A stretch of 64,000 bases of DNA from Niabella sp. (GTDB lineage: Bacteria; Bacteroidota; Bacteroidia; Chitinophagales; Chitinophagaceae): assembly GCA_027493055.1 (NCBI GenBank), contig JAPUDO010000053.1, positions 17,997 to 81,996 on the forward strand, given 5' to 3'. Shown in pieces: positions 2,311 through 29,346 of this stretch; position 1 is the first letter of the stretch, and each line of letters starts with the position of its first letter. Both the position numbers and the translations under genes were made by a program. The notes under the pieces were generated by a model. The model made no database searches. It saw only the letters and a program-made list of their open reading frames with translations, and had not been told where the DNA came from.

Positions 2311-3210
2311 CTACTTCTTTTTTTGTAACGAAGTCCGTACTTTTTTTACGAAAGCTTGCGTAACATTAGCCAGAGAGGCAATTTTAGCAATAGTGAAATC
2401 AGTGTTGGAAAGCAGGTTTTTTACAAACAGTTCTTTGCCTTCTTCAACGCCCTTTTCCCTGCCTTGTTGTATTAAATATTCCTTTACACCCATAATTTTC
2501 CTTTTGTCGGTGATTTGTCCTATTTTCTTTTCAAAGGTAGCATAAGTCTCAGAATCGGCAAAGCGGATACAGTTTTGCAGAAACGCATAAATAGCAATGA
2601 TCTTTCGCTGTGAGAGCTTTTTACCAGCCAGGGCCCGGAATATCCATTCATGGCGGTTCATCAGCTCCTCATCCGTTGCTTTACCGCTAAGCAGCGCCGT
2701 TTTGGCCGCCAGCATTACAAGGGCAAAAGGATTATTTATGCTTTTTAGCGTCTCGTCTTCCTGGTCAATAACCCGGTAGGTATTATATTGGTATTCGAGC
2801 CGTGTGCCCAAGAGTTCTATTTCATAACGTTCGGGCGGAAATCCCTGGACACCAGTAAAGATAACGATTGCTGTTACCGGGCGCCTGTACCTGTCTAATA
2901 TCCGGTAGAAATATTGAAACATCCTGTGTGCAAATTGCTTATCAGCATACCCCTGCACTTCAATATGTACCAATATCCACTGCTCTCCGCCGCTCTTCCA
3001 TTGCACTTTAACCAGCTTGTCAACAAAGCGTACGTTTCGATCTGTTTCTTTGTCCGGGTATAGCTTTTCCAGCTCTTTATCCAGAAACTCAAATCTGCGC
3101 ATATCAAAAAGCATATCGGCGTCACGAAAAAAGAACCGTAAAAAATCGGGGAAAAGGTCTTCTATAAGCGATTTCCAGATCGGGTCGAACTGGTGTTTAT
3201 TTTTATTCAT
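2311..3210 (-). CDS. Rpn-type PD-(D/E)XK nuclease / putative transposase
   Basis: This 299-residue protein has the layout of Rpn/YhgA-like recombination-promoting nucleases. An N-terminal DPIWKSLIEDLFPDF segment is followed by a core with D64 (RFVDKL) and the E-x-Q catalytic signature IEVQG (E84, Q86), then a helical C-terminal half. The tail carries a charged EKGVEEGKE linker and ends in AFVKKVRTSLQKKK. The same tail style occurs in the second Rpn gene at 16.8 kb (SFVKKIRTSLKNKK), although the cores differ considerably. Rpn proteins in E. coli are known to stimulate RecA-independent recombination and have DNase activity. The neighbours are unrelated, and I found no duplicated flank here. Start ATG at 3210. 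Confidence 0.75.
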   Translation of the reverse strand: MNKNKHQFDPIWKSLIEDLFPDFLRFFFRDADMLFDMRRFEFLDKELEKLYPDKETDRNVRFVDKLVKVQWKSGGEQWILVHIEVQGYADKQFAHRMFQYFYRILDRYRRPVTAIVIFTGVQGFPPERYEIELLGTRLEYQYNTYRVIDQEDETLKSINNPFALVMLAAKTALLSGKATDEELMNRHEWIFRALAGKKLSQRKIIAIYAFLQNCIRFADSETYATFEKKIGQITDKRKIMGVKEYLIQQGREKGVEEGKELFVKNLLSNTDFTIAKIASLANVTQAFVKKVRTSLQKKK

Positions 3211-4985: not shown

Positions 4986-7922
4986 TTAATATCCGAATAG
5001 CTCTTCCAGGCTTAACACTTTTACAGTGCCGTATTTTGAAAGGTTTTCAGGGCCCATATTTTTTTCGCTTCCGATGATGGTATAGCTGTATTTTTTGTTA
5101 GCTAACTGGCTATCATGAAACGCTTTGATATCACTGAATTTCAGCCCTTTTATTTGTGTATATTTTACTTTTCGAGGATCATCCGCCAACCCTTTCTTTT
5201 GAGCAGCGATATAGCTGAAAATGATCCCGGTCTTTTCTATACGCCCGGTTTCAATATCTTTTAAAGTGCTCAGCCTCCCGTTTTCAAACGCATTTTCCCT
5301 TTCCGGTAAAGTATTAAGCAACTCGGTCATTGCAGCAATAGCTTCAGGCAGCTTATCGGCCTGGCTGCCTACATATCCTGTAAAGGAAAAGGGATCTTCT
5401 TTTTTAGCAGGAGTGCCTACATAAGCATAAGTAGAATAGGCCAATGCTTTAGACTCACGGATGGTTTGAAAAACGATGGATCCCATTCCCCCTCCAAAAT
5501 AGCTGTTGAACAGATCAACAACCGCTTCTTTGTTATAATCGTAAGGCAGCAAATTACGCACCCATGTCATTTCGGCCTGTACCATATCGTAATAAGCCAG
5601 GAACACCTGGTTTTCGTTTTGAACCGTGCGATTAAATTTAACGGCTTTAGGCACCGGAGCCCATGCCGTAAGCATTGGGTGCGATTTTTTAACTTCTGCA
5701 GCAAGTGCTGCAGTACTTAAAGGACCATAGTATAAAACCTGTGGCTGGTATTTCACAAGACTCTTTATGATAGCTACCAGCTCCTGTGCAGTAAGGGCAT
5801 CCAGCTCGGCATCACTCAGCACATTATTGAAAGGATTGGCAGCTCCATAAGCAGCATAGCTGTTCAGGGCCTGCATAATTGATCCCTTGCTGGTTTTTGC
5901 ATTAGCCCTTGCTTTTTGCAGGCGGTTTTTCAGGCCCTCAAGCGCTTCCTCATCGGGCTTACAGTTCCGGATCAGGTGCTCTAACAATGCTAAAGATTTA
6001 GAGAAATTTTCATTCAGTCCGTTCAGCTGAATATAAGAATCCTCCGTTCCGCTGTTTACTGAAAAGTTGGCGGCCAATTGGTAAAACGCTTTGGTAACGT
6101 CCTCTGCAGAATATTTATCTGTACCCAGGTATTGAAGATAACTAAGCGCTATAGGAAGCTTTTTATTGTTCCAGCTTCCTGTATTGTAACGGAAATAGAG
6201 ACTGTACAGGCTGTTTTCCTTATTAGGCACGTACAGTAATTCTGTATTTGAAATTTTACTTTTTTGCAGATCCGTTTTAAAATTTACCCAACGCGGTGCA
6301 ATAGGTGCCAGTGGCATGGCATCTATTTTTTTCACAAAATCAGATTGTTTGCCGGCATTGGTTTCTACCGGTGTAATGGCCGGTTTTTCAACTTTTACAA
6401 TGCTTTTGTCCTCTCCTTTCCTTTTATAAACAACTACATAATTATCGCCAGTAAAAAATTGATTGGCATATTCTATAAGCTGGGCTTTTGTAATTTTCTT
6501 CATTTCATCCAGCTTTGCCACTTCGGTCTTCCATCCTTCCCCTTTGGTTTTAATAAAGTTGTCAACCATAGCATTGGCGCGGTAGCTGTTATTTTCCTGT
6601 GCCTGTAGCTCTCTTAGCTTATAATTAGCAACTATAGCATCCAGTAATTTATCATCAAACCTGCCCTGTTTTAAGGAATCAATTTGCGCCAGCAGCAAGG
6701 CCTTTACCTCATCCAGGGATTGTTCCTGCTTTGGAGAGGCGCTGAAAGTAAATACACCATAATCTTTGTACTGCCTTATGCCGCATCCTGCCCCTAACAC
6801 TTTTTGTTGTTTGTTGAGGTTGAGGTCTAAAAGACCGGCTTTACCATTAGCCAATATATTGTCGATAGCTTTTAATATAAGATCTTCTTTTGTACCATAG
6901 GGTCCTGTACGAAACGCAATGGTTATACTTTCTGCATTAGGGCCGTAAACTTCTTTAACGATAGGGCCTTTAATAGGTTGCTCCGGAGCCGGCTTATATT
7001 CTTTAACTGGCTGCTCTTTCATGTAGCTGAAAGCCTGATCAATCTTTTTGATCATTACATCCGGATCAAAATCCCCTGACATTACTACCGCCATATTATT
7101 GGGTACGTAATATTGATAGTAATAATCCCTGATAGCTTTTAATGAAGGATTTTTCAAATGCTCTATGGTGCCAATAGTAGTTTGCTGACCGTAATTATGT
7201 GTAGGGAAAAGCCCGCTATGAGTGGTTTCCATTACTTTCCAGCCATCATTGTCCATTGTACGGTTCTTTTCTTCGTACACTGCTTCCAGCTCCGTATGAA
7301 AAATGCGAAGTATAGGGTTACGGAAACGCTCGGCCTGAACAGCCAGCAAACGATCTACTGCATTTGATGGTATATCTTCATCATACACTGTTTCTTCCAC
7401 CCAGGTATGCGCATTGGTTCTTTGCGAACCCATAGCCGTCATCATTTTATCATATTCATTAGCTATGGAATATTGTGAAGCACGCCCGGACACTTCATCT
7501 ATTTGCCTGTAAATGGCGCGACGTTGAGCAGTATCTGTTGTTGTATTATACATTTCATATAACGCATCAATGCTATCTAATAAAGGTTTTTCCCTGGCCC
7601 AGTTAAGTGAGCCAAACTGATCCGTTCCTTTAAACAGCATGTGCTCCAGGTAGTGGGCCAGGCCCGTATGATCTCTCGGGTCTGTATTGCTGCCGGCTCT
7701 TACAGCCATGTGATAGGTAATGCGTGGCTCTTTTTTATTAGAGCTCAGCATTACGGTAAGCCCGTTAGATAAAGTATATATCCGTACCTGAAGCGGATCG
7801 CCGCTTACATATTTGTACGTGTAATTTCCCGATTTCCCTTCTTTCCATTCGTATGCGGATTGTAACCATGCTTCCTGGGAAAAAGCAGTCAGCAGCAAAA
7901 GTGATAATATAATTTTTTTCAT
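4986..7922 (-). CDS. M16 (pitrilysin/insulinase-type) zinc metallopeptidase
   Basis: From the ATG at 7922 the product is 978 residues with a signal peptide (MKKIILSLLLLTAFSQ). I prefer this start to the upstream in-frame ATG at 7970 because it begins directly with the signal peptide and lies about 30 nt after a promoter box. The inverted zinc motif HxxEH is present as H90-Y-L-E93-H94, and LEAVYEEKN (E217/E218) supplies the likely third ligand. A second M16-like half follows without HxxEH, as is usual for the inactive C-terminal half that forms the closed chamber. The protein probably degrades peptides in the periplasm. It is adjacent to the Dar genes but has no obvious role in pigment synthesis. 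Confidence 0.9.
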   Translation of the reverse strand: MKKIILSLLLLTAFSQEAWLQSAYEWKEGKSGNYTYKYVSGDPLQVRIYTLSNGLTVMLSSNKKEPRITYHMAVRAGSNTDPRDHTGLAHYLEHMLFKGTDQFGSLNWAREKPLLDSIDALYEMYNTTTDTAQRRAIYRQIDEVSGRASQYSIANEYDKMMTAMGSQRTNAHTWVEETVYDEDIPSNAVDRLLAVQAERFRNPILRIFHTELEAVYEEKNRTMDNDGWKVMETTHSGLFPTHNYGQQTTIGTIEHLKNPSLKAIRDYYYQYYVPNNMAVVMSGDFDPDVMIKKIDQAFSYMKEQPVKEYKPAPEQPIKGPIVKEVYGPNAESITIAFRTGPYGTKEDLILKAIDNILANGKAGLLDLNLNKQQKVLGAGCGIRQYKDYGVFTFSASPKQEQSLDEVKALLLAQIDSLKQGRFDDKLLDAIVANYKLRELQAQENNSYRANAMVDNFIKTKGEGWKTEVAKLDEMKKITKAQLIEYANQFFTGDNYVVVYKRKGEDKSIVKVEKPAITPVETNAGKQSDFVKKIDAMPLAPIAPRWVNFKTDLQKSKISNTELLYVPNKENSLYSLYFRYNTGSWNNKKLPIALSYLQYLGTDKYSAEDVTKAFYQLAANFSVNSGTEDSYIQLNGLNENFSKSLALLEHLIRNCKPDEEALEGLKNRLQKARANAKTSKGSIMQALNSYAAYGAANPFNNVLSDAELDALTAQELVAIIKSLVKYQPQVLYYGPLSTAALAAEVKKSHPMLTAWAPVPKAVKFNRTVQNENQVFLAYYDMVQAEMTWVRNLLPYDYNKEAVVDLFNSYFGGGMGSIVFQTIRESKALAYSTYAYVGTPAKKEDPFSFTGYVGSQADKLPEAIAAMTELLNTLPERENAFENGRLSTLKDIETGRIEKTGIIFSYIAAQKKGLADDPRKVKYTQIKGLKFSDIKAFHDSQLANKKYSYTIIGSEKNMGPENLSKYGTVKVLSLEELFGY

Positions 7923-11485: not shown

Positions 11486-12703
11486 GTGGTATCACATGCG
11501 TTTATACGGGATATTAATAATACATACGAAACTTTTAACAGCTTAAAAGTTTGCGTTATTATACCTACTTACAATAATGCTGCTACCATCAGCGCTGTTA
11601 TCGCTGATGTACTTCGATATACAGGCAATGTTATTGTGGTAAATGATGGCTCTACTGATACTACCGAAACGCTTTTACAGTCGATAACTGATATAACCCG
11701 GGTTTCTTATACATTAAACCGGGGCAAAGGGTTTGCGCTGCGCACCGGGTTTAAAAAAGCCATAGCACTGGGGTTTGAGTATGCCATCACTATTGATTCT
11801 GACGGCCAGCATTTTGCTAAAGATCTCCCAGCTTTTATTAATAAACTGAAGGAAAGCGGCCCTGCCCTCATCATGGGAGCCCGTAATATGGACACAGCAG
11901 CAAATGTACCGGGCAAAAGCAGCTTCGGCAATAAGTTTAGTAATTTCTGGTACAAGACTGAGACCGGCATTGAGCTGCCCGACACGCAGACGGGGTATCG
12001 TTTATACCCACTTGCGCCTATCGGCCAAATGAAGTTTTTTACCCGTAAATATGAGTTTGAGATTGAAGTAATTGTACGCCTGGCATGGGCCGGGGTAAAA
12101 GTGATCTCGGTTCCTATTACTGTATATTATCCGCCCAAAGAAGAGCGGATCAGCCATTTCAGGCCGTTTAAAGACTTTACACGCATCAGTATCGTAAACA
12201 CAGTGCTGGTAACTATTTGCTTCTTTTATATATGGCCGCGCAATTTTTTCAGGCGGTTCTATAAAAATAAAAACTGGAAGCAGGAGCTAAAGCAAATACT
12301 GTTAAAGCCCGGTGAAAGTGATGCCAGGAAAGCATACTCCGTTGCGTTTGGAGGGTTTATGGGTATTGTTCCTATATGGGGATTCCAGCTGCTGACAGGC
12401 ATTCCGTTAGCCCATTTATTAAAACTGAATAAAACGCTGTTTATAATTGCTGCTAACATCAGCATCCCTCCCATGATCCCCTTTATTCTTTTTTTCAGCT
12501 ACAAAATGGGAAAGCCATTTATGGGCAGCAGGGCGGTGGATCTGTCGTTTAATAAGCAGCTTACCCTCGAAAAAATGGGTCAAAACCTGGAACAGTATAT
12601 TTATGGAGCCTTCTTTTTAGCGATCATTGTGGGGGTTCTGTTCTGGATACTAACGTTCTTATTTTTGAAAGTACGTAAGTTAAAAAAGCAAAGCCGAGCG
12701 TGA
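11486..12703 (+). CDS. Family 2 glycosyltransferase fused to DUF2062
   Basis: The N-terminal part (about residues 21-235) is a GT-A family 2 transferase: VCVIIPTYNN, the nucleotide-binding VVNDGSTD (51-58), and the metal-binding D-S-D in TIDSDGQH (104-106). A membrane segment follows near 232-250, and the C-terminal part (about 270-400) is a DUF2062-type integral membrane region (GGFMGIVPIWGFQLL). The start is GTG at 11486; no upstream in-frame ATG is evident. Aryl polyene and flexirubin loci commonly include a GT2 protein next to an MMPL exporter, as here. The acceptor is unknown. Confidence 0.85.
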   Translation: MVSHAFIRDINNTYETFNSLKVCVIIPTYNNAATISAVIADVLRYTGNVIVVNDGSTDTTETLLQSITDITRVSYTLNRGKGFALRTGFKKAIALGFEYAITIDSDGQHFAKDLPAFINKLKESGPALIMGARNMDTAANVPGKSSFGNKFSNFWYKTETGIELPDTQTGYRLYPLAPIGQMKFFTRKYEFEIEVIVRLAWAGVKVISVPITVYYPPKEERISHFRPFKDFTRISIVNTVLVTICFFYIWPRNFFRRFYKNKNWKQELKQILLKPGESDARKAYSVAFGGFMGIVPIWGFQLLTGIPLAHLLKLNKTLFIIAANISIPPMIPFILFFSYKMGKPFMGSRAVDLSFNKQLTLEKMGQNLEQYIYGAFFLAIIVGVLFWILTFLFLKVRKLKKQSRA

Positions 12704-12718
12704 CAGACTAATCATTAG

Positions 12719-12748
12719 ATTGTTTTCTATTGGCGAAGAGAAAACAAT
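12719..12748 (+). other. Intercistronic hairpin between the GT2 and MMPL genes
   Basis: Perfect 10-bp inverted repeat, ATTGTTTTCT (12719-12728) / AGAAAACAAT (12739-12748), with a 10-nt loop, in the 62-bp gap. No T-run follows, so RNA processing or stability is likelier than termination. Confidence 0.4.
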
Positions 12749-12765
12749 ACATTAAGACCAGTTAA

Positions 12766-15700
12766 ATGCAAAAAACATTCACTTCCATATTCGATTTTTT
12801 TAAAAAGAACAAGGCGGCTCTTTACCTCACGTTTTTTACCACGCTGGCGCTGTTTGTTCTTTTTGCATCCAGGGTAAAATTTGTTGAAGATGTTTATGCC
12901 ATCATCCCGAAAGATGAAAAAACAGAGAAACTCACACAGGTATTTGAAAACTCCAAGTTCGCAGACAAGCTGGTGGTGATGGTTTCTCTTAGGGATAGTA
13001 CCCTTACGGACCCCGATAAACTGACGGCTTATGCAGATATATTTGCAGAACATCTGCAACAGGATGCAAAACCTTATATAAAGAATCTCCGGCATAAAAT
13101 TGACGAGGCATTTACCTATTCCCTTTTTGAAACGATACAAAACCATCTTCCCGTTTTTTTAACAGAAAGTGATTATAATAAAATAGATACACTCCTGCAG
13201 CCGGAAGAGCTGGCAAAATCCCTCCGCCGCAGCAGTTCTATCTTGGGAATTCCTTCGGCAACGCCTGTTAAAAATATTGTATTGAAAGACCCATCCGGAA
13301 TTTCGTTCCTGGCATTACAAAAATTACAGCAGCTGCAATACGAAGACAATTTTACACTTCATCAGAACCATTTCATTACAAAGGACAAGAAGACCCTGAT
13401 GTTGTTTATTACGCCTGCTTACCCCGCAGGTAATACCGGTAAGAACCAATATCTTTTTAAGGCTATTGATGCTGTTATTGACTCATTGCAGCAGAACGGC
13501 TTTCCTAATATCAGCACACAGTATTTTGGCGCGGCAGTAGTATCGCAGAACAACGCGGCACAATTACGGAAAGACACCCTGCTTACACAAGGCGTTACCG
13601 TATTATTCCTGGTTGTTTTCTTAGGCTTTTATTTTAAGCGGAAACGTGCGCCGGTGCTTATCCTGGTGCCGGTGGTGTATGGCGCAGCATTTGCGCTTGC
13701 CGCTATCTGGTTTATTAAGGGCAGTATTTCTGTAATTGCATTGGGCACCGGCTCTATCGTTCTGGGAATAGCAGTTAACTATTCGCTGCATGTGTTCAAT
13801 CACTACCGGCATACCGGCAATATTAAAAAGGTTATTGAAGATCTTTCTTTTCCGCTTACGATTGGCAGCATTACTACTATTCTTGGCTTTTTGAGCCTGC
13901 AATATGCTGCATCGGACATGTTGAAAGACCTGGGCCTGTTTGCCGGCTTCAGCCTTATTGGTGCAGCTTCCTGCTCCCTGGTATTTCTCCCGCATTTCAT
14001 CAGCTCCACGCATAAAGTGGAAGTAAAACATTCATGGCTTGATAAAATTTCCTCTCTAAGAGTAGAGACGAATAAATGGGTGGTTGCTGCTATTTTCATT
14101 ATTACGATCGTCCTTTACCAGTTTGCCGGCAAGGTTTCGTTTGAGCCGGATATGATGCAGCTGAACTATATGTCGGACAAGCTTAAAGCAGCAGAGCATA
14201 AACTGAATGGCATTAGCGGAGCAGCTTTAAAATCTGTCTACGTTGTCAGCGAAGGGGATGACCTTAACAAGGCGTTACAAAGAAATGAAGCGCTTCAGAA
14301 TGAGGTTGATCTTTTAAAAAGCAAAGGGCTTATTAATACCAGCTCGGGTGTGGCCAACCTGTTTATGTCAGACAGCCTGCAACAAAAACGGATAGCCCGT
14401 TGGAACGCTTACTGGACACAGGACAAAAAGCAGCAGGTATTACAAAACCTCGCTGTTATGGCGCCCGCATCGGGTTTTACAGCAGATGGTGTCAATAACT
14501 TTGAAGAATTGATCAGCCAGGCATACCAGCCTGTTGCCCTGAATGACCTGCAGGCTTTACGGAACAGCTTTTTAGATGATTACATTACTGAAAAAGCAGG
14601 TATGGCCTCGGTGGTTACGTTGATCAAAGTACCTGAGCAATATAAACAACAGGTCATTGCGGCTATAGAGAAACAGCCACAAGCCACGGTTTTAGACCGG
14701 CAATATCTCACCAGCCGGCTTACACAAATGGTGAACGATGACTTTAACCATATTGCCTGGACCATTTCTATTATTGTTGCGGTTGTGCTGTTTTTAACTT
14801 ATGGTAGAATAGAGCTGATGCTGATGTGCTTTATTCCGATGCTTTTTAGCTGGATATGGATACTTGGCATAATGGCCCTTTTTAATATACAGTTCAACAT
14901 TGTGAACATCATCATCTCTGCTTTAATATTCGGGCTGGGAGATGATTACAGCCTGTTTGTTATGGACGGGCTGGTTAACGAATACAAAACCGGAAAGAAA
15001 AACCTTGCTTCCTATAAATCGTCTATTTTGTTGTCTGCCATAACTACCATGGCAGGTTTAGGCGTATTGATATTTGCGAAACACCCTGCTTTAAGGTCCA
15101 TCGCTTTTATATCTGTCACCGGCATTCTTTGCGTGGTGATCATGTCGCAGGTGCTAATACCCTTCTTCTTTTCTTTAGTGATCAGAAACCGTGTGCGCAA
15201 AGGCTTTCATCCATGGACCTTATGGAGCTGGAGCCGTTCTGTTTTCTCCTTTTTCTATTTTGGTTTTGTAAGTGTGCTGCTTACCCTTATTGGTGTTTTT
15301 TTGATTAAGTTGAATCTATTAGGAAGAAAAAAAGGCAAATATGTATATCATTATTTGTTGTCTAAATTCTGCATGTCGGTATTATACATCATGGGGAATT
15401 TTAAAAAGCAGCAGATCAACCCGGAGCACGAAAACTTTAAGAAGCCCGCTGTAGTAGTTGCCAACCATCAGTCTTTTTTGGATATTTTGCAAATGGCAAT
15501 GCTTAACCCCAGGCTGATATTGCTTACCAACAAATGGGTATGGAACTCTCCTGTTTTTGGATGGGCCATAAAAATGGCTGATTTTTATCCTGTTGCCAAC
15601 GGTGTAGAAAACAGTGTAGAGCTGTTAAACACACAGGTACGGGAAGGTTATTCCATATCTGTATTTCCTGAAGGTACGCGAACCTCATACCCACCCATGA

Positions 15701-16605
15701 AACGATTTCATCAAGGAGCTTTTTACCTGGCAGATCAATTAAAGCTGGATATTGTGCCCGTGCTGTTTCACGGTTTAGGTTATACCATGACCAAAGGAGA
15801 CTTTCTGCTGAAGAACGGCCCCATTACTGCTAAATATCTGCCCCGCATCAAAGCTGATGATACGAGCTGGGGCCATACTTACCAGGAAAGGACTAAAACT
15901 ATTTCCAGGTATTTTAAACAGCAGCACGAAGCATTGACCAAAGAGTTGGAAACGCCGGCCTCTTTTAAAGAGCACCTGTTCTTTAACTATATTTATAAAG
16001 GTCCGGTGCTGGAATGGTATTTAAAAATCAAGCTAAGACTTGAAAATTATTACCAGCCCTTTCATGAACTTTTACCGGAGGAGGGGGATTTTTTAGACCT
16101 GGGCTGCGGCTATGGCTTTATGAGCTATACTTTGCATTGGGCCAGCCAGGGGAAACGGAATTTTACCGGGGTAGATTACGATGAAGAAAAGATTGCAACA
16201 GCACAACGTTGCTTTAGCAGAACAGAAGCGGTAAATTTCGTTTGCGGAGATATTGCAACATTTCCGCCCCGAAAGTATAATGGGATCATCATCAGCGATG
16301 TCTTACATTACCTGCCACCAACCTTACAACAGGAAGTAATTGAAAATGCCATAGACAGCTTATTGACAGGTGGTGTGCTCATCATTCGTGATGGAGATGC
16401 CGACCTGAAGGAAAAACATAAAGGCACCCGGCTCACAGAATTCTTTTCAACCAGGATATTCTCATTCAATAAAACAACTAACAAACTGCATTTTCTATCG
16501 GGCAGTGATATAGAAGCTATTACAGCAAAAAAAGAAGTGCATTTGCAGCGTATTGACGATACAAAATATACTTCTAATGTGGTATGGGTGATAAGAAAAA
16601 AGTGA
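12766..16605 (+). CDS. MMPL/RND exporter - PlsC acyltransferase - methyltransferase fusion
   Basis: The 1279-residue protein joins three domains. Residues about 1-835 form an MMPL/RND-type transporter with duplicated membrane bundles (IALGTGSIVLGIAVNYSLHVF and IISALIFGLGDDYSLFV, each with the family's conserved polar positions). Residues about 875-1065 are a PlsC-like acyltransferase with NHQSFLD (HX4D, H about 900) and FPEGTR (about 967). Residues about 1100-1279 are a class I SAM methyltransferase (FLDLGCGYGF, near 1111, and GVDYDEE). MMPL exporters and acyltransferases are typical of aryl polyene loci; combining all three in one chain couples modification with export (inference). The last 80 bp are duplicated beyond the next gene. 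Confidence 0.88.
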   Translation: MQKTFTSIFDFFKKNKAALYLTFFTTLALFVLFASRVKFVEDVYAIIPKDEKTEKLTQVFENSKFADKLVVMVSLRDSTLTDPDKLTAYADIFAEHLQQDAKPYIKNLRHKIDEAFTYSLFETIQNHLPVFLTESDYNKIDTLLQPEELAKSLRRSSSILGIPSATPVKNIVLKDPSGISFLALQKLQQLQYEDNFTLHQNHFITKDKKTLMLFITPAYPAGNTGKNQYLFKAIDAVIDSLQQNGFPNISTQYFGAAVVSQNNAAQLRKDTLLTQGVTVLFLVVFLGFYFKRKRAPVLILVPVVYGAAFALAAIWFIKGSISVIALGTGSIVLGIAVNYSLHVFNHYRHTGNIKKVIEDLSFPLTIGSITTILGFLSLQYAASDMLKDLGLFAGFSLIGAASCSLVFLPHFISSTHKVEVKHSWLDKISSLRVETNKWVVAAIFIITIVLYQFAGKVSFEPDMMQLNYMSDKLKAAEHKLNGISGAALKSVYVVSEGDDLNKALQRNEALQNEVDLLKSKGLINTSSGVANLFMSDSLQQKRIARWNAYWTQDKKQQVLQNLAVMAPASGFTADGVNNFEELISQAYQPVALNDLQALRNSFLDDYITEKAGMASVVTLIKVPEQYKQQVIAAIEKQPQATVLDRQYLTSRLTQMVNDDFNHIAWTISIIVAVVLFLTYGRIELMLMCFIPMLFSWIWILGIMALFNIQFNIVNIIISALIFGLGDDYSLFVMDGLVNEYKTGKKNLASYKSSILLSAITTMAGLGVLIFAKHPALRSIAFISVTGILCVVIMSQVLIPFFFSLVIRNRVRKGFHPWTLWSWSRSVFSFFYFGFVSVLLTLIGVFLIKLNLLGRKKGKYVYHYLLSKFCMSVLYIMGNFKKQQINPEHENFKKPAVVVANHQSFLDILQMAMLNPRLILLTNKWVWNSPVFGWAIKMADFYPVANGVENSVELLNTQVREGYSISVFPEGTRTSYPPMKRFHQGAFYLADQLKLDIVPVLFHGLGYTMTKGDFLLKNGPITAKYLPRIKADDTSWGHTYQERTKTISRYFKQQHEALTKELETPASFKEHLFFNYIYKGPVLEWYLKIKLRLENYYQPFHELLPEEGDFLDLGCGYGFMSYTLHWASQGKRNFTGVDYDEEKIATAQRCFSRTEAVNFVCGDIATFPPRKYNGIIISDVLHYLPPTLQQEVIENAIDSLLTGGVLIIRDGDADLKEKHKGTRLTEFFSTRIFSFNKTTNKLHFLSGSDIEAITAKKEVHLQRIDDTKYTSNVVWVIRKK
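16526..16605 (+). repeat. 80-bp direct repeat, proximal copy (end of the fusion gene)
   Basis: This copy encodes the last residues and stop of the MMPL fusion gene. It matches 17784-17863 at 79 of 80 positions (75 consecutive identical bases, then one A/C difference, then GTGA). The difference changes the last residue from Lys to Thr in the distal copy. The copies are 1258 bp apart and bracket the Rpn gene. Confidence 0.95.
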
Positions 16606-16708
16606 CAGTTGCTTTTCTATTTCCTGTTTTTCTGCGAAAGATCTTAGTAGAAAGCCACTTTTTTCCCGAAGTAAGCTCGTACTAAACCTAAACCAAAAAG
16701 TAACGTAT

Positions 16709-16741
16709 AAAAAAGGCCATTCCTAACATTAGAAACAGCCT
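16709..16741 (-). terminator. Intrinsic terminator of the second Rpn gene
   Basis: Read on the minus strand, AGGC..TTTCTAA / TTAGGAA..GCCT forms a near-complete stem followed by TTTTTTA, about 25 nt after the Rpn stop codon. Confidence 0.6.
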
Positions 16742-16765
16742 CTCTTTTATAATTTTTTAGGATCA

Positions 16766-17689
16766 CTATTTTTTATTTTTCAGCGAGGTGCGTATTTTTT
16801 TTACAAAGCTAACAGGAACTTCTGCGGCACTTGCAGCCTGCTCATCAGTAAAGCCAAATTTATTTATAAGATTCTTTACGAACTCATAGCTTTTTTGCTC
16901 TGCACCTTTTTCCATGCCCTTCTCCATACCTTTTTCCATAGCTCTCTCCTCTGCTGTTTTTAATACAGAATAGGCTGTCCATTTATCTAAAAGGTCTTTT
17001 TCGTATAACATATACTCCTCCTTTTTTAAGTTAGCTACTTCAGCAATTTTAAATAACTTCTGAAATATCTTCTTATGCAAAAATACCGGAATTTTCTCCA
17101 TTTTTCCCATGTTACGCAACACATACATCCAGCGTTCAAGGTCGGTTTTTATTTCCTGTTCTTCCAGGCTAAAATTAGGAAGCTCTAAAAATATAAATCC
17201 CAGCTTATTGTAAAACACCTCTCCGGTTTCTTCTTCTGCCAGCCGCACCCAATGAAAATATTTACCGGGAACTGTTTTATCAAAATTAAAGTCCATAAGC
17301 CCTACAAAGTACACTTCTTTGAGCTCAAAGTCCCAGTGCCGGTTTCCTTTCGGTCCCTGCTCATGCAGTTTGCTGGCTATATAAAAAAGAGCGCGATCGG
17401 TAAAAAACTTCTGATCTGCCCGCTGTACTTCTATAATGAAGGTTTCGCCATTGGCGCCGGTACAGGTAAGATCAAAAATAGATTTGCGGTAATGCTTTGC
17501 CGGGCCGCCTTCTTCCTGTGGGTTATACACCAGGTCTTTTATTACTTTACACCCTTTGAACAGTTCGTTCAAAAAGGCAATCAGCAAATCTTTATTAGGC
17601 TCAGAACCCAGCAGGCGCTTAAATCCAAAATCGGTTAGCGGGTCTATAAAACGGCCAATCGGCGGAATCTTATTTTGGTGTTTTGTCAT
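16766..17689 (-). CDS. Rpn-family PD-(D/E)XK nuclease / putative transposase, inside a duplicated flank
   Basis: From the ATG at 17689 the protein is 307 residues. It shows the classic Bacteroidota Rpn opening, RFIDPLTDFGFKRLLG, the PD-(D/E)XK core with D73 (SIFDLTC) and E87-V-Q89 (FIIEVQRAD), and a helical C-terminal half. A linker of three to four MEKG repeats is followed by a helix-turn-helix-like tail (DEQAASAAEVPVSFVKKIRTSL). The start is preceded by a perfect -7 box with only 4 nt between, so the mRNA is probably leaderless. The gene is bracketed by an 80-bp direct duplication of the neighbouring gene's 3' end, which points to acquisition by insertion or recombination. Rpn proteins are linked to RecA-independent recombination. 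Confidence 0.88.
   Translation of the reverse strand: MTKHQNKIPPIGRFIDPLTDFGFKRLLGSEPNKDLLIAFLNELFKGCKVIKDLVYNPQEEGGPAKHYRKSIFDLTCTGANGETFIIEVQRADQKFFTDRALFYIASKLHEQGPKGNRHWDFELKEVYFVGLMDFNFDKTVPGKYFHWVRLAEEETGEVFYNKLGFIFLELPNFSLEEQEIKTDLERWMYVLRNMGKMEKIPVFLHKKIFQKLFKIAEVANLKKEEYMLYEKDLLDKWTAYSVLKTAEERAMEKGMEKGMEKGAEQKSYEFVKNLINKFGFTDEQAASAAEVPVSFVKKIRTSLKNKK
16904..16939 (-). repeat. Three 12-bp tandem repeats coding for MEKG in the Rpn linker
   Basis: Three consecutive 12-bp units (ATGGARAARGGY on the minus strand), two of them identical, encode MEKG-MEKG-MEKG. Such in-frame repeats can vary in number without breaking the frame. Confidence 0.8.
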
Positions 17690-17693
17690 CAAC

Positions 17694-17701
17694 CAAAGAT
17701 A
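17694..17701 (-). promoter_or_regulatory. -7 box (TATCTTTG) for the second Rpn gene
   Basis: Perfect TAnnTTTG ending 4 nt before the ATG at 17689, which implies a leaderless transcript. Confidence 0.55.
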
Positions 17702-17783
17702 AGACTATGTTAATTTCGTTATTAAAATCTAAAGAAAAACCCTCAGACAAAGGTGTAAGCACCTCTCTTATTAATAGCTACAA

Positions 17784-17863
17784 CAAAAAAAGAAGTGCAT
17801 TTGCAGCGTATTGACGATACAAAATATACTTCTAATGTGGTATGGGTGATAAGAAAAACGTGA
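17784..17863 (+). repeat. 80-bp direct repeat, distal copy
   Basis: Copy of the 3' end of the MMPL fusion gene including its stop codon, now detached from any reading frame start. It is followed 17 bp later by the convergent metal-binding protein gene, so this copy probably sits at the original chromosomal position of the gene end. Confidence 0.95.
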
Positions 17864-17879: not shown

Positions 17880-18236
17880 CTAATCAGTAACTTCCTTTTT
17901 AGCCGTTCTATCATACTGGCAGCAGCCATGGAGGTTGTTGTAGGCTTTGTCAGAAGCTTTTGCTCCTGCGTTATCGTAGCCGGCTTCCGCGATTTTCTGC
18001 TGTATTTGGGGGAGATCGGTGCTTTTAGCTTTATACTTTACAGTAAGGATCTTGGAATCTTTATTCCAGTCGGCAAACGAAGCGCCGGCATCTTTGGCCG
18101 CTTTTTCAATTGTTTTTTTGCACATGCCACAATTGCCCGAAACCTCAAAATTTTCTGTTTTCTGAGATTGGGCAAAAGAAGTATTAGCGGCAAATATCAA
18201 TATAGCGGCTATCAATAATCTTAATTTCTGCATCAT
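17880..18236 (-). CDS. Periplasmic heavy-metal-associated (HMA) domain protein
   Basis: The 118-residue protein has a signal peptide (about residues 1-22) and one ferredoxin-like HMA domain with a G-N-C36-G-M-C39 metal site in place of the usual MxCxxC, followed by a conserved-looking C-terminal HGCCQYDR that adds two cysteines. It would bind Cu(I) or a similar soft metal ion in the periplasm. The gene converges on the pigment operon and has its own -7 box at 18281. A link to pigment synthesis is not evident. Confidence 0.8.
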   Translation of the reverse strand: MMQKLRLLIAAILIFAANTSFAQSQKTENFEVSGNCGMCKKTIEKAAKDAGASFADWNKDSKILTVKYKAKSTDLPQIQQKIAEAGYDNAGAKASDKAYNNLHGCCQYDRTAKKEVTD

Positions 18237-18288: not shown

Positions 18289-18357
18289 ATAACATTATAA
18301 ACCAGAATTTGTTAAAATCTGAATAAGTATTTTCCGCGATTTTTGCCTGTAATTACT

Positions 18358-19875
18358 ATGCATCCACCCGAGAAATATGATATTGTAATAATCGGCAGCG
18401 GCCTTGGAGGATTGTTATGTGCGAACCTTCTTGCTATGCACGGTAAAAAAGTATGCGTACTGGAAAAAAACAAACAGTTTGGTGGCAACCTGCAAACCTT
18501 TGCACGGGATAAACAGGTTTTTGATACCGGTGTACATTATATTGGCGGATTAGATAAAGGACAGAATCTTTACCAGGTATTTAAATATGTGGGACTGATG
18601 GATCAACTAAAGCTGGAAAGAATGAATGAGTGTTTTGATAAAGTGCTGATAGGAAGCGATACCACCATTTATTGCCAGGCACAAGGATATGAGGCGTTCA
18701 TTAAAAATCTTACAAAACATTTTCCGGAAGAAGTGCAGCATATTGTTGCCTACTGCGAAAGGATAAAAGAAGTTTGTGCCTCTTATCCTTTATACAACCT
18801 TACTTTGAAAGCTGAAGAAGACATGGCCTACAAAGGAAATAATCAAAGCGCCCGGGAAATAATTGCCTCTTTTACGTCTAATAAGAAGTTACAGGCAGTG
18901 CTGGCGGGCAACAATATTTTATACGCCGGTGATAGCGGTAAAACACCTTTTCATGTTCATGCTTTAATTACCAACAGTTATATTGAAAGCAGCTGGAAAT
19001 GTGTAGGCGGAGGATCACAGATCGCGAAAATATTAGCAGCAAACCTCAGGAAAAACGGTAGTGAAATCATTCGCAATTGCGAGGTGAAAAAGATTGTAGA
19101 GGAAAATGGACGCATTGTTTATGTAGAAACAGAAAGAGGAAATAAAGTATATGGCAATCACTTTATATCGAATATAAATCCGGCCACTACATTGCATATT
19201 ACCGACTCCTCGCTTTTAAAAGGTTTATACCGGAAACGCATTGATAACCTGCAACAGGGTATTTCTTCCTTTTCGGTGCATATTGTTTTAAAGGGAAAAA
19301 CAATCCCTTACGAAAAATGTAATTATTATTATCACAGGGAAGGACAATTGTGGAACCTGAATAACTATACACCCGATAGCTGGCCCCTGGGCTATGGATT
19401 ATATTTTACAGAAGATAAACAAAATAAAGGTTTTGCTGCAACAGTATCACTACTGACGCCTATGCGTTTTGATGAAGTGGCACAATGGTCGGGTACTTAT
19501 AACCGCGTAGGGAAGGCGGCTAACCGGGGCACAGATTATGAAAGATTTAAAGAACATAAGACCCGCCAATTATTGGAATTGGTAGATGAACGTTTCCCGG
19601 AAATTGTGAAAAATATTAAAAGTGTATATGCTTCTACGCCGCTTACCAACCGTGATTATATTGGCGATGCCACGGGGAGTATGTATGGAATAGAAAAGGA
19701 CTATCACGATCCGCTTAAAACAATGATAAGTCCGCGTACTAAAATTCCTAACCTGTTTTTAACAGGTCAGAATTTAAATTTGCATGGCATTTTAGGCACT
19801 TCACTAAGCGCTGTACTTACCTGTGTAATGCTGCTGGGCAATGAAGGGCTGGTGGAAGAGATAAGAAAGGCGTAA
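18358..19875 (+). CDS. Phytoene-desaturase-like FAD oxidoreductase
   Basis: From the ATG at 18358 (preferred over a TTG at 18343) the product is 505 residues. It opens with an FAD-binding Rossmann motif, IIGSGLGGLLCANLL (11-25), with VLEKN marking the ribose-binding acid, and closes with the carotenoid-desaturase/isomerase-type FAD motif FLTGQNLNLHGILG near residue 470. Members oxidise, isomerise or reduce polyene chains. Such proteins occur in flexirubin gene sets, so this one may tailor the aryl polyene or the resorcinol (inference). It is followed after 108 bp by the C45/AAT-like gene on the same strand. Confidence 0.85.
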   Translation: MHPPEKYDIVIIGSGLGGLLCANLLAMHGKKVCVLEKNKQFGGNLQTFARDKQVFDTGVHYIGGLDKGQNLYQVFKYVGLMDQLKLERMNECFDKVLIGSDTTIYCQAQGYEAFIKNLTKHFPEEVQHIVAYCERIKEVCASYPLYNLTLKAEEDMAYKGNNQSAREIIASFTSNKKLQAVLAGNNILYAGDSGKTPFHVHALITNSYIESSWKCVGGGSQIAKILAANLRKNGSEIIRNCEVKKIVEENGRIVYVETERGNKVYGNHFISNINPATTLHITDSSLLKGLYRKRIDNLQQGISSFSVHIVLKGKTIPYEKCNYYYHREGQLWNLNNYTPDSWPLGYGLYFTEDKQNKGFAATVSLLTPMRFDEVAQWSGTYNRVGKAANRGTDYERFKEHKTRQLLELVDERFPEIVKNIKSVYASTPLTNRDYIGDATGSMYGIEKDYHDPLKTMISPRTKIPNLFLTGQNLNLHGILGTSLSAVLTCVMLLGNEGLVEEIRKA

Positions 19876-28084: not shown

Positions 28085-28314
28085 GGGTAGACGCGGCAAA
28101 TAAGGTATCGTTTGTCTTTTCTATAAACGGTTAATGCCTATGGCATTATATACAAGAACCCGAGCCTGGTAAAGCGATATTACATCTTATTTAAGAAGCA
28201 ACAATATCATATTATTTAAATACGAACCTCTTAATAAGAACATTCTGTTGTTTGTCCCATAGGGACAAAATGTTTGAAGCTGTTAAAATAAACCAGGGTC
28301 CCGTGCGCAACAAT
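28085..28314 (+). repeat. Hairpin repeat unit 1 (eroded copy)
   Basis: It starts GGGTAG and ends CGCAACAAT like the other units. Hairpin 2 (TAATGCC/GGCATTA with loop TAT, 28132-28148) and hairpin 3 (TTTGTCCC/GGGACAAA with loop ATA, 28251-28269) are intact. Hairpins 1 and 4 have each lost one arm (ACGCGGC and GTGCGCA only). Confidence 0.85.
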
Positions 28315-28334
28315 GCTAACATATTACCCAAATA

Positions 28335-28574
28335 GGGTAGCCGCTACGCGGCAAATAACATGTTCTTTCCTTTCTATAAACGTTTCATGCCTACGGCATG
28401 GTGTAGCGGAATTAACAATACATAAGGCAACTTCGGAAAAGCAGCATTGTAATCTATTTACAATGCGACAAACCTATTATTATTGTAAATACCCCCGTTA
28501 TTGTCCCATAGGGACAAAAAGTTTGAAGCCATTGAAACAAACCAGGTTGCTGCGCGCCGTAGGTGCGCAACAAT
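28335..28574 (+). repeat. Hairpin repeat unit 2 (intact, upstream of the transposase)
   Basis: Four hairpins: GCCGC-TAC-GCGGC (28340-28352), ATGCC-TAC-GGCAT (28387-28399), TTGTCCC-ATA-GGGACAA (28501-28517) and TGCGCGCC-GTA-GGTGCGCA (28551-28569). The unit ends 47 bp before the transposase ATG. Confidence 0.9.
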
Positions 28575-28621
28575 AGAGGTATTATATTACAAATCGATAT
28601 CTTTATTTTAGAAAAACCTAT

Positions 28622-29089
28622 ATGTCAAACACCTATACACAATTACATATCCATTTTGTTTTTGCCGTAAAATACCGGCAGGCGCTGATACAACCAGAAT
28701 GGGAAGAAAGATTACATAAGTATATAACAGGCATTGTTCAGAATAATGGTCATAAAATGCTCGCTATCAATTCTGCCGGGGACCACATACATATATTCAT
28801 CGGATTAAACCCTAAACAATCTATTTCTGACCTGATGCGCCTGGTAAAAGGGGATAGTAGTGAATTTATTAATATTAATAAACTCACAAAGCGAAAGTTT
28901 TATTGGCAACAGGGGTATGGTGCTTTTAGCAACAGCCATTCGCAAATAGATGCAGTTGTAAAATATATTCAGAAACAAAAGGAGCATCATACCCGTAAAA
29001 CATTCAAAAATGAATACCTGAAAATGTTGAACGATCATGAAGTTGCTTATGACACGAGATATGTATTTGTTGATCCTGAAGATGATTAG
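28622..29089 (+). CDS. tnpA: IS200/IS605-like Y1 transposase (RAYT-like context)
   Basis: The 155-residue protein is a single-strand DNA transposase of the HUH/Y1 type: the HUH pair is H55-I-H57 in AGDHIHIFIG, the nucleophilic tyrosine is Y115 in VVKYIQKQKEHH, and WQQGYGAFS is also typical. The length is normal and the frame is intact, so the enzyme may be active. No tnpB accompanies it. The gene is wedged between two multi-hairpin repeat units; the downstream unit begins 2 bp after the stop codon. HUH transposases recognise subterminal hairpins in single-stranded DNA, so these hairpins are its likely substrates (inference). Confidence 0.92.
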   Translation: MSNTYTQLHIHFVFAVKYRQALIQPEWEERLHKYITGIVQNNGHKMLAINSAGDHIHIFIGLNPKQSISDLMRLVKGDSSEFININKLTKRKFYWQQGYGAFSNSHSQIDAVVKYIQKQKEHHTRKTFKNEYLKMLNDHEVAYDTRYVFVDPEDD

Positions 29090-29090
29090 G

Positions 29091-29346
29091 GGGTAGCCGC
29101 TACGCGGCAAATAGGGCCTTTCCTGCCTTTTTTACAAACGTTTTATGCCTACGGCATAGTAGAAGAACAATAGTTCCCGGAACAGTCCAAAAAGAAATAT
29201 CCTGATCTGCTCAAAATGGACAAACCTATTATTATTGCAAATATTCTCTTTATAATAAAAAACTCCTGTTGTTTGTCCCATAGGGACAAAATGTTTGAAG
29301 CCATTGCAACAAACCAGGTTCCTGCGCGCCATAGGTGCGCAACAAT
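29091..29346 (+). repeat. Hairpin repeat unit 3 (intact, downstream of the transposase)
   Basis: Four hairpins: GCCGC-TAC-GCGGC (29096-29108), ATGCC-TAC-GGCAT (29145-29157), TTTGTCCC-ATA-GGGACAAA (29272-29290) and TGCGCGCC-ATA-GGTGCGCA (29323-29341). The unit ends 2 bp before the stop of the convergent yjjG-like gene. Confidence 0.9.

Follow-up and report, generated by a model that had tools for sequence, protein, structure and literature searches.

Two 3′ ends of an MMPL fusion gene enclose an rpn gene in Niabella sp.: a possible scar of one-sided homologous integration

Results

Organization of the MMPL-rpn locus

We analyzed a 64-kb stretch of a Niabella sp. contig (the window; the genome is coded G000, its congeners G001 to G016), in which a gene for an Rpn nuclease is located between two nearly identical copies of the 3′ end of an MMPL-acyltransferase-methyltransferase fusion gene. 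The two ends may be a scar left by one-sided homologous integration. The following genes and signals were assigned to the locus, partly by means of the list of open reading frames (ORFs).

12766..16605, plus strand: gene for an MMPL-acyltransferase-methyltransferase fusion protein of 1279 aa, with a duplicated 3′ end (ORF list, family profile matches)
16521..16605, plus strand: copy 1, the final 85 nt of the MMPL gene including its TGA stop codon (repeat search)
16709..16749, minus strand: hairpin resembling a terminator, on the 3′ side of rpn, with GGC...GCC arms and runs of T (read from the sequence)
16766..17689, minus strand: rpn, PD-(D/E)XK nuclease of PF12784/TIGR01784, 307 aa from ATG (ORF list, profile matches)
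16766..16939, minus strand: predicted internal RpnS-like product, 57 codons plus stop, from the MEKG repeats, with the purine-rich sequence GAGGAGAG before its ATG
17694..17701, minus strand: TATCTTTG box, similar to a Bacteroidota -7 element, 4 nt upstream of the rpn ATG (read from the sequence)
17779..17863, plus strand: copy 2, the second MMPL 3′ end, outside every ORF of at least 70 aa (repeat search, ORF context)
17880..18236, minus strand: gene for a heavy-metal-associated (HMA) domain protein, the right-hand neighbor, found directly behind the MMPL gene in G001
18343..19875, plus strand: flavin adenine dinucleotide (FAD)-dependent oxidoreductase gene, in most congeners the right anchor of a variable slot; ORF listed from TTG

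The direct repeat (16521-16605 and 17779-17863) comprised 85 nt with two mismatches (97.6% identity) and a spacing of 1258 bp. An initial annotation of the window had described the final 80 bp of the MMPL gene as recurring at this distance with one mismatch; the repeat search agreed and extended the match, whose 80-nt core indeed contained a single mismatch. Comparison of the two rpn flanks by BLAST gave an E value of 7.2e-39, and thus the repeat is not due to chance. On the right, the similarity between the copies ended with the MMPL stop codon. Throughout the 5.75-Mb draft of 131 contigs, the core had two matches at E ≤0.001, which were these two copies. As a baseline, 22 local repeat rows (at least 45 nt, at least 80% identity) were counted in 795 kb of G000, four of them, including the MMPL pair, at 95% identity or more; the ORF context was inspected for 13 pairs among these rows.

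Rpn, encoded on the minus strand, was the only family-matched gene between the copies. This corresponds to the initial annotation, which had placed nothing else there than rpn with its box and terminator, both signals being read from the sequence. An antisense ORF of 128 aa (17252-17638) overlapping rpn is probably not a gene. ORF list and family profiles revealed no recombinase gene between the copies, as would belong to an integrase-type unit. Neither did the repeat search disclose an inverted pair at the two borders, and a duplication of 85 nt does not correspond to the target-site duplication of an insertion sequence. An alignment of the intergenic DNA of G001 with the window, by which the native one of the two MMPL ends was sought, was not decisive (best P 0.10).

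The Rpn protein matched PF12784 over the full profile with 218.1 bits, above the cut-off, and TIGR01784 with 95.8 bits (cut-off 52.1). PADLOC gave no strong match; a putative invertase model was matched weakly. At the C-terminus the protein contains MEKG four-residue repeats, to which 12-nt repeats at 16904-16949 correspond. The TATCTTTG box resembles the -7 element of the Bacteroidota promoter consensus. Comparable boxes and terminator hairpins adjoin several other Niabella rpn genes. The similarity of the window rpn to other rpn loci ends near the gene. In several Niabella rpn genes, the box ends approximately 3-5 nt before the likely start codon, so that rpn mRNAs would be leaderless or nearly so. 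Judged by its family, the window Rpn is probably a nuclease directed against phages whose gene also encodes an internal antitoxin, the RpnS concept of PMC10327210.

The MMPL locus in Niabella and beyond

Seventeen Niabella genomes including G000 were compared. The MMPL locus was found in 15 of the 16 others; G013, an incomplete draft, yielded none. As far as the stretches reach, the 15 loci share the order glycosyltransferase, MMPL, variable slot, FAD oxidoreductase and next gene. The FAD gene followed the MMPL gene directly in two congeners (G015, G016), approximately 1.8 kb of other DNA lay between MMPL and HMA in G002 and G003, and eight of the 15 contained 1.2-2.1 kb ahead of the FAD gene with no HMA match; in the stretches of G008 and G012 the FAD gene was not found. 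G001 offers a site with one copy of the end, such as the initial annotation had recommended to look for: a single MMPL end is followed by HMA without rpn, and HMA alone separates MMPL from the FAD gene.

All 15 congeneric loci contained one MMPL 3′ end (that of G002 split by a frameshift), and an rpn match was found in none of them. Two copies in all relatives, at unrelated divergence, would have spoken against the initial annotation; this was not the case. The content of the slot behind MMPL changes frequently, and among the genomes compared G000 alone has the double end. No rpn gene was detected in 80 wider MMPL-like loci. An MMPL end was obtained from 76 of them, and in 73 the sequence continued for 1.5 kb or more beyond this end. 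The sole match to a second MMPL end in these loci (L130) was weak (29% identity), on the opposite strand and about 6 kb away. No carrier of the rpn unit emerged from plasmid and phage records, nor from viral contigs scanned for an exact match of 43 bases.

Flanks of other rpn genes

We assembled 142 rpn places: all 23 Niabella loci, 49 of 63 rows outside G000, and 70 places from another set of about 110 rows outside G000 (counted by eye), from which weaker and fragmentary rows were left out. The 126 places with at least 600 bp on both sides were tested for direct repeats at E ≤1e-6. Bracketing repeats were disclosed at the window rpn and at eight further loci (L181, L184, L202, L208, L266, L280, L287, L291). 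However, the duplicated end of a neighboring single-copy coding gene was found at none of the 125 other places, but only in the window. The 22 further rpn loci of Niabella likewise lacked a flank duplication comparable to that of the window. Gene-end duplication is therefore not a habit of rpn genes. The initial annotation had proposed to search other rpn genes for duplicated neighboring ends, supposing that the pattern may show how rpn genes spread. Neither this nor a driving role of rpn was supported by the 125 places or by two related scars without rpn (see below); reuse of the same border, by relatives or by other rpn genes, was seen neither in the 15 congeners and 80 wider loci nor at the 125 rpn places.

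The remaining repeats turned out to be of other kinds. Those of L181, L184, L202 and L280 are intergenic and hence not gene-end copies, the ones of L184 and L280 being multi-copy in their own genomes (8 and 7 places). L202 and L208 contain hairpin repeats; that of L208 lies beside tandem rpn copies, and one of its copies overlaps an ORF end by 2 nt. The match in L287 measured only 23 nt, with one copy inside a small ORF, and partial copies of rpn itself were found in L266 and L288. Nearest to the window case was L291, where a dispersed recombinase-end repeat present at 24 places lies beside one rpn gene, in another family.

The second rpn gene of G000 (contig C106) is situated between the convergent ends of two open neighboring genes without any duplication, and in G001 this slot holds a different small gene. 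Presumably, the neighbors are rplQ and an RND gene, and the occupant in G001 is a small DoxX-like gene. Two rpn loci are common to G004, G009 and G014. Their flanks are kept (about 75-92% identity in the main segments), so these two loci look inherited in place.

In L288 (1353-2836), the C-terminal end of rpn recurs twice behind the gene (92% and 54% identity, about 60 aa). These extra ends are possibly spare RpnS-like antitoxins.

Gene-end remnants elsewhere in G000

Approximately 789 kb of G000 (42 stretches, 614 ORFs) were scanned for remnants of gene ends downstream of the respective genes, with gene starts as a control. Three downstream end remnants passed: those of the MMPL gene, of a DUF1543 gene (L346) and of an EamA transporter gene (L350). 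The names Gp49, HTH_3, Y1 transposase, DUF1543 and EamA used here derive from Pfam profiles. No remnant of any kind was obtained from 415 ORFs of other Niabella genomes, and no downstream end from the 591 ORFs of the wider MMPL loci. From the 398 ORFs of the wider rpn loci, two rows with downstream ends were obtained; both stem from one gene (L288) and are copies of the end of rpn itself. The high-identity gene-end matches of L348 and L127 proved to be ordinary paralogous domains in full-length ORFs.

In L350 (G000:C53:1-18200, positions 12588-14425), an EamA end is followed by a Gp49/HTH_3 toxin-antitoxin pair and a second, diverged EamA end. Over 124 nt the identity of the two ends is about 81%, and over 117 nt their differences are distributed over the codon positions as 3/4/14 (P 0.0018 versus equal use). 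In G008 (L086, around 8576) the EamA gene stands directly before the next conserved gene, a phosphoesterase gene, with one end and without a toxin-antitoxin match, i.e., as an empty site. The two EamA ends of G000 showed 62% and 61% identity to that of G008; four further 14-kb congener stretches contained no EamA ortholog. L346 (G000:C31:20001-40000, approximately 5082-7398) comprises a DUF1543 gene end, a Y1 transposase gene and the remnant of a second DUF1543 end, with differences of 15/6/21 by codon position over 111 nt (P 0.019). Both P values are uncorrected for two tests. In neither case does rpn lie between the copies.

The bias to third positions suggests that in each case the two ends were parts of functioning genes while they diverged. 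They would then have belonged to separate lineages, or to a pair of functioning paralogues, and have been brought together later. Going by the codon positions, divergence as coding sequence is indicated clearly for EamA and weakly for DUF1543. With its empty site and its third-position differences, the EamA case is a cleaner scar than the MMPL case.

Discussion

Interpretation of the two MMPL ends

We favor, with a rough probability of 0.48, the explanation that a one-sided homologous integration left the two MMPL ends as its scar and that the gene end of a relative was thereby acquired together with an accessory gene. A DNA fragment of a close relative, carrying its own MMPL end and then rpn, would have entered the MMPL end of G000. 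At the left join, homologous exchange within the MMPL end would have left a gene with an intact 3′ end. The right join would be non-homologous, brought about either by illegitimate joining or by a single crossover of a fragment that had circularized before, and the last 85 nt of the second MMPL end would have been left behind rpn. If the intergenic stretches following the two ends come from different sources, this would account for the halt of the similarity at the stop codon. A single exchange of this sort would yield the order gene end, foreign gene, gene end, with the similarity halting at the stop codon or shortly beyond it. Rpn was probably a passenger in this event. In this scheme the donor, the order of events, the assignment of the native copy and the route of entry are inferred.

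Homology on one side, a foreign gene and the partial duplication of a gene end, by which a one-sided scar is recognized, occur together at the MMPL locus. Besides this geometry, the explanation is supported by the single MMPL end in all 15 congeners, the lack of rpn at the G001 locus and the two similar scars in G000. The initial annotation had already supposed that a unit recombined into the gene end with the reading frame kept. This part of its proposal is supported by the geometry, the G001 site and the EamA case; the integrase-like part is not supported, as no recombinase lies between the copies. We regard the MMPL feature as more than an oddity, because the sampled genome contains two sister scars, one of them with an empty site. 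The type of event is already known, the sample is small, and the claim specific to rpn fails.

Several points weigh against this interpretation. Both mismatches of the MMPL pair are nonsynonymous, which suits a decaying in-genome copy at least equally. A clear in-register microhomology was not seen at the non-homologous join; for homology-facilitated illegitimate recombination (HFIR), 3-10 bp at the illegitimate join are the criterion. Moreover, HFIR proper usually deletes rather than duplicates, according to PMC3240628. At the MMPL locus the nearest of the relatives compared has no more than 76% DNA identity, and a donor with an MMPL end plus rpn was not found in the 15 congeneric loci, the 80 wider loci or plasmid or phage records. 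As regards the sister scars, working paralogues could likewise yield the third-position bias, and an empty site is known for the EamA case alone, none having been sought for DUF1543. The scan controls were not free of matches either. Among the 614 ORFs of G000 one start remnant occurred (L340, in a block of related genes), the wider MMPL loci gave one upstream end (L117), and the wider rpn loci two start remnants near contig ends. One downstream end (L467), one upstream end and two start remnants were found on the array contigs (243 ORFs). Under looser rules the numbers of end and start matches approached each other: G000 yielded seven downstream ends and one upstream end versus three downstream and two upstream start matches, without signs of paralogy; among the seven were the paralogous domain of L348 and L352, L359 and L366, which had 39-49% identity. 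Three downstream remnants per 614 ORFs versus 0/415 and 0/591 represent a small sample. As the controls gave matches, the excess of 3′ end remnants in G000 is suggestive but not established.

Alternative explanations

A later templated duplication remains a serious rival because both MMPL mismatches are nonsynonymous. In this case rpn would already have resided in the slot, and template switching during repair or replication would have copied the 85-nt MMPL end into the break between rpn and HMA, rpn itself being unrelated to the event. That the copies are nearly identical and local, and that other tested rpn places lack an rpn-linked pattern, is also in favor of such copying. What makes it somewhat unlikely in our view is that the copy stops exactly at the stop codon and that the two scars of the same shape in G000 differ like coding sequence, which recent templated copying would not produce. 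Alternatively, the MMPL gene, or only its end, may have been duplicated in tandem; the second copy would then have been largely lost and rpn gained in between. This would leave a 3′ remnant too, and adjacent paralogous genes are present in G000. Since it requires a deletion and a gain at one place, and in none of the 15 congeners is there a second MMPL end beside the gene, this course of events appears quite unlikely.

Integrative elements at the 3′ ends of tRNA and other genes restore the gene end and leave a second copy of it at the far border. The initial annotation had thought of a mobile unit of rpn plus a gene-end copy that integrates in this site-specific manner and by which rpn spread. 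Geometry and restored frame, the G001 site without rpn and the varied DNA taken up by the MMPL-FAD slot within the genus would suit it. Unlike those elements, however, the MMPL unit measures only about 1.2 kb, contains no recombinase between the copies and revealed no shared site. The lack of such a duplication at the 22 other Niabella loci and at any of the 125 other tested places, the C106 rpn gene, whose slot holds another gene in G001, the two ortholog sets with kept flanks in G004, G009 and G014, and the 80 wider MMPL loci devoid of rpn argue likewise against the mobile unit, which we regard as very improbable. An artefact of the draft assembly, suggested by its 131 contigs and judged from the assembly alone, can hardly be assumed, as the copies differ at two bases, have unique flanks and reside on a single 82-kb contig.

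Comparison with known systems

HFIR couples one homologous with one illegitimate end (Amarir-Bouhram et al. 2011, PMC3240628); Streptococcus pneumoniae, Acinetobacter baylyi and Pseudomonas stutzeri are named there for it. In the E. coli experiments described there, 56 of 60 clones gave a PCR product diagnostic of a partial lacZ duplication, and 14 sequenced duplications had 109-950 bp. The products were interpreted as a single crossover with a circular molecule missing part of the fragment. The MMPL locus resembles these HFIR and single-crossover products in that foreign DNA would have been joined by one-sided homology, with a partial gene-end duplication around the insert. In contrast to them, it is a natural locus and not an experiment, and its 85 nt are shorter than their duplications.

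According to a preprint on RpnS, four-residue repeats and the anti-phage action of rpn (Zhong et al. 2023, PMC10327210), rpn genes are gained and lost one at a time; their ends vary, and target-site duplications are absent. The window rpn shares with them the gain of a single gene in a variable slot, the C-terminal four-residue repeats and a predicted internal start, but is bracketed by a gene-end duplication. We therefore consider the MMPL case an exception to the absence of flanking duplications at rpn genes, not a rule. Two independent insertions of rpnC/yadD at one place have been reported (Kingston et al. 2017, PMC5350276), and the slot behind MMPL is similar insofar as an rpn-type gene occupies an intergenic slot that was possibly reused. 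Unlike the window rpn, rpnC/yadD belongs to the PF04754 family, and gene-end duplication is unmentioned in the available part of that paper.

In this Niabella lineage, accessory and defense genes (rpn, a HigBA-type pair and a Y1 transposase gene) might repeatedly have been acquired where protein genes end, each on a fragment that brought along a relative's version of the 3′ end, and the nuclease activity of Rpn might favor such capture; we think that this generalization is rather unlikely to hold. If it were true, the cell would retain an intact gene and a datable remnant, and by counting gene-end remnants one could generally trace the transfer of single genes between sister species. Such scars bear on the movement of single defense genes (rpn, toxin-antitoxin pairs) in the absence of a transposase. 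Where the native gene end is preserved next to the incoming one, a single sequence could reveal donor, join and direction, and any genome can be screened for such scars.

Further observations

The window contains a second Rpn-type gene of another family (PF04754, Transposase_31) at 2311-3210 on the minus strand, with 24.2 bits versus a cut-off of 21. A Y1 transposase gene, which we take to be RAYT-like, is located at 28622-29089 with repeats of 57-77 bp and about 84% identity on either side (28232-29329).

In G300, which belongs to another Bacteroidia family, a repeat of 265-315 bp was found at 24 places (L381-L397, L376, L469). The 5′ portion of the repeat corresponds to the end of a tyrosine recombinase gene (the catalytic half at C24; a long recombinase runs off contig C44), and at many places an ORF on the same strand begins shortly after the copy. 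Genes adjoining the copies comprise CAP12-TIR, Rpn, AbiL-type pairs, restriction-modification genes and a PDC-S02 gene. The set looks like an array of defense-gene cassettes. In G172 and G290 (L460-L468), repeats of about 110 bp are situated close behind many short genes, rpn among them, as in cassette arrays; some of these short genes are presumably toxin-antitoxin-like pairs.

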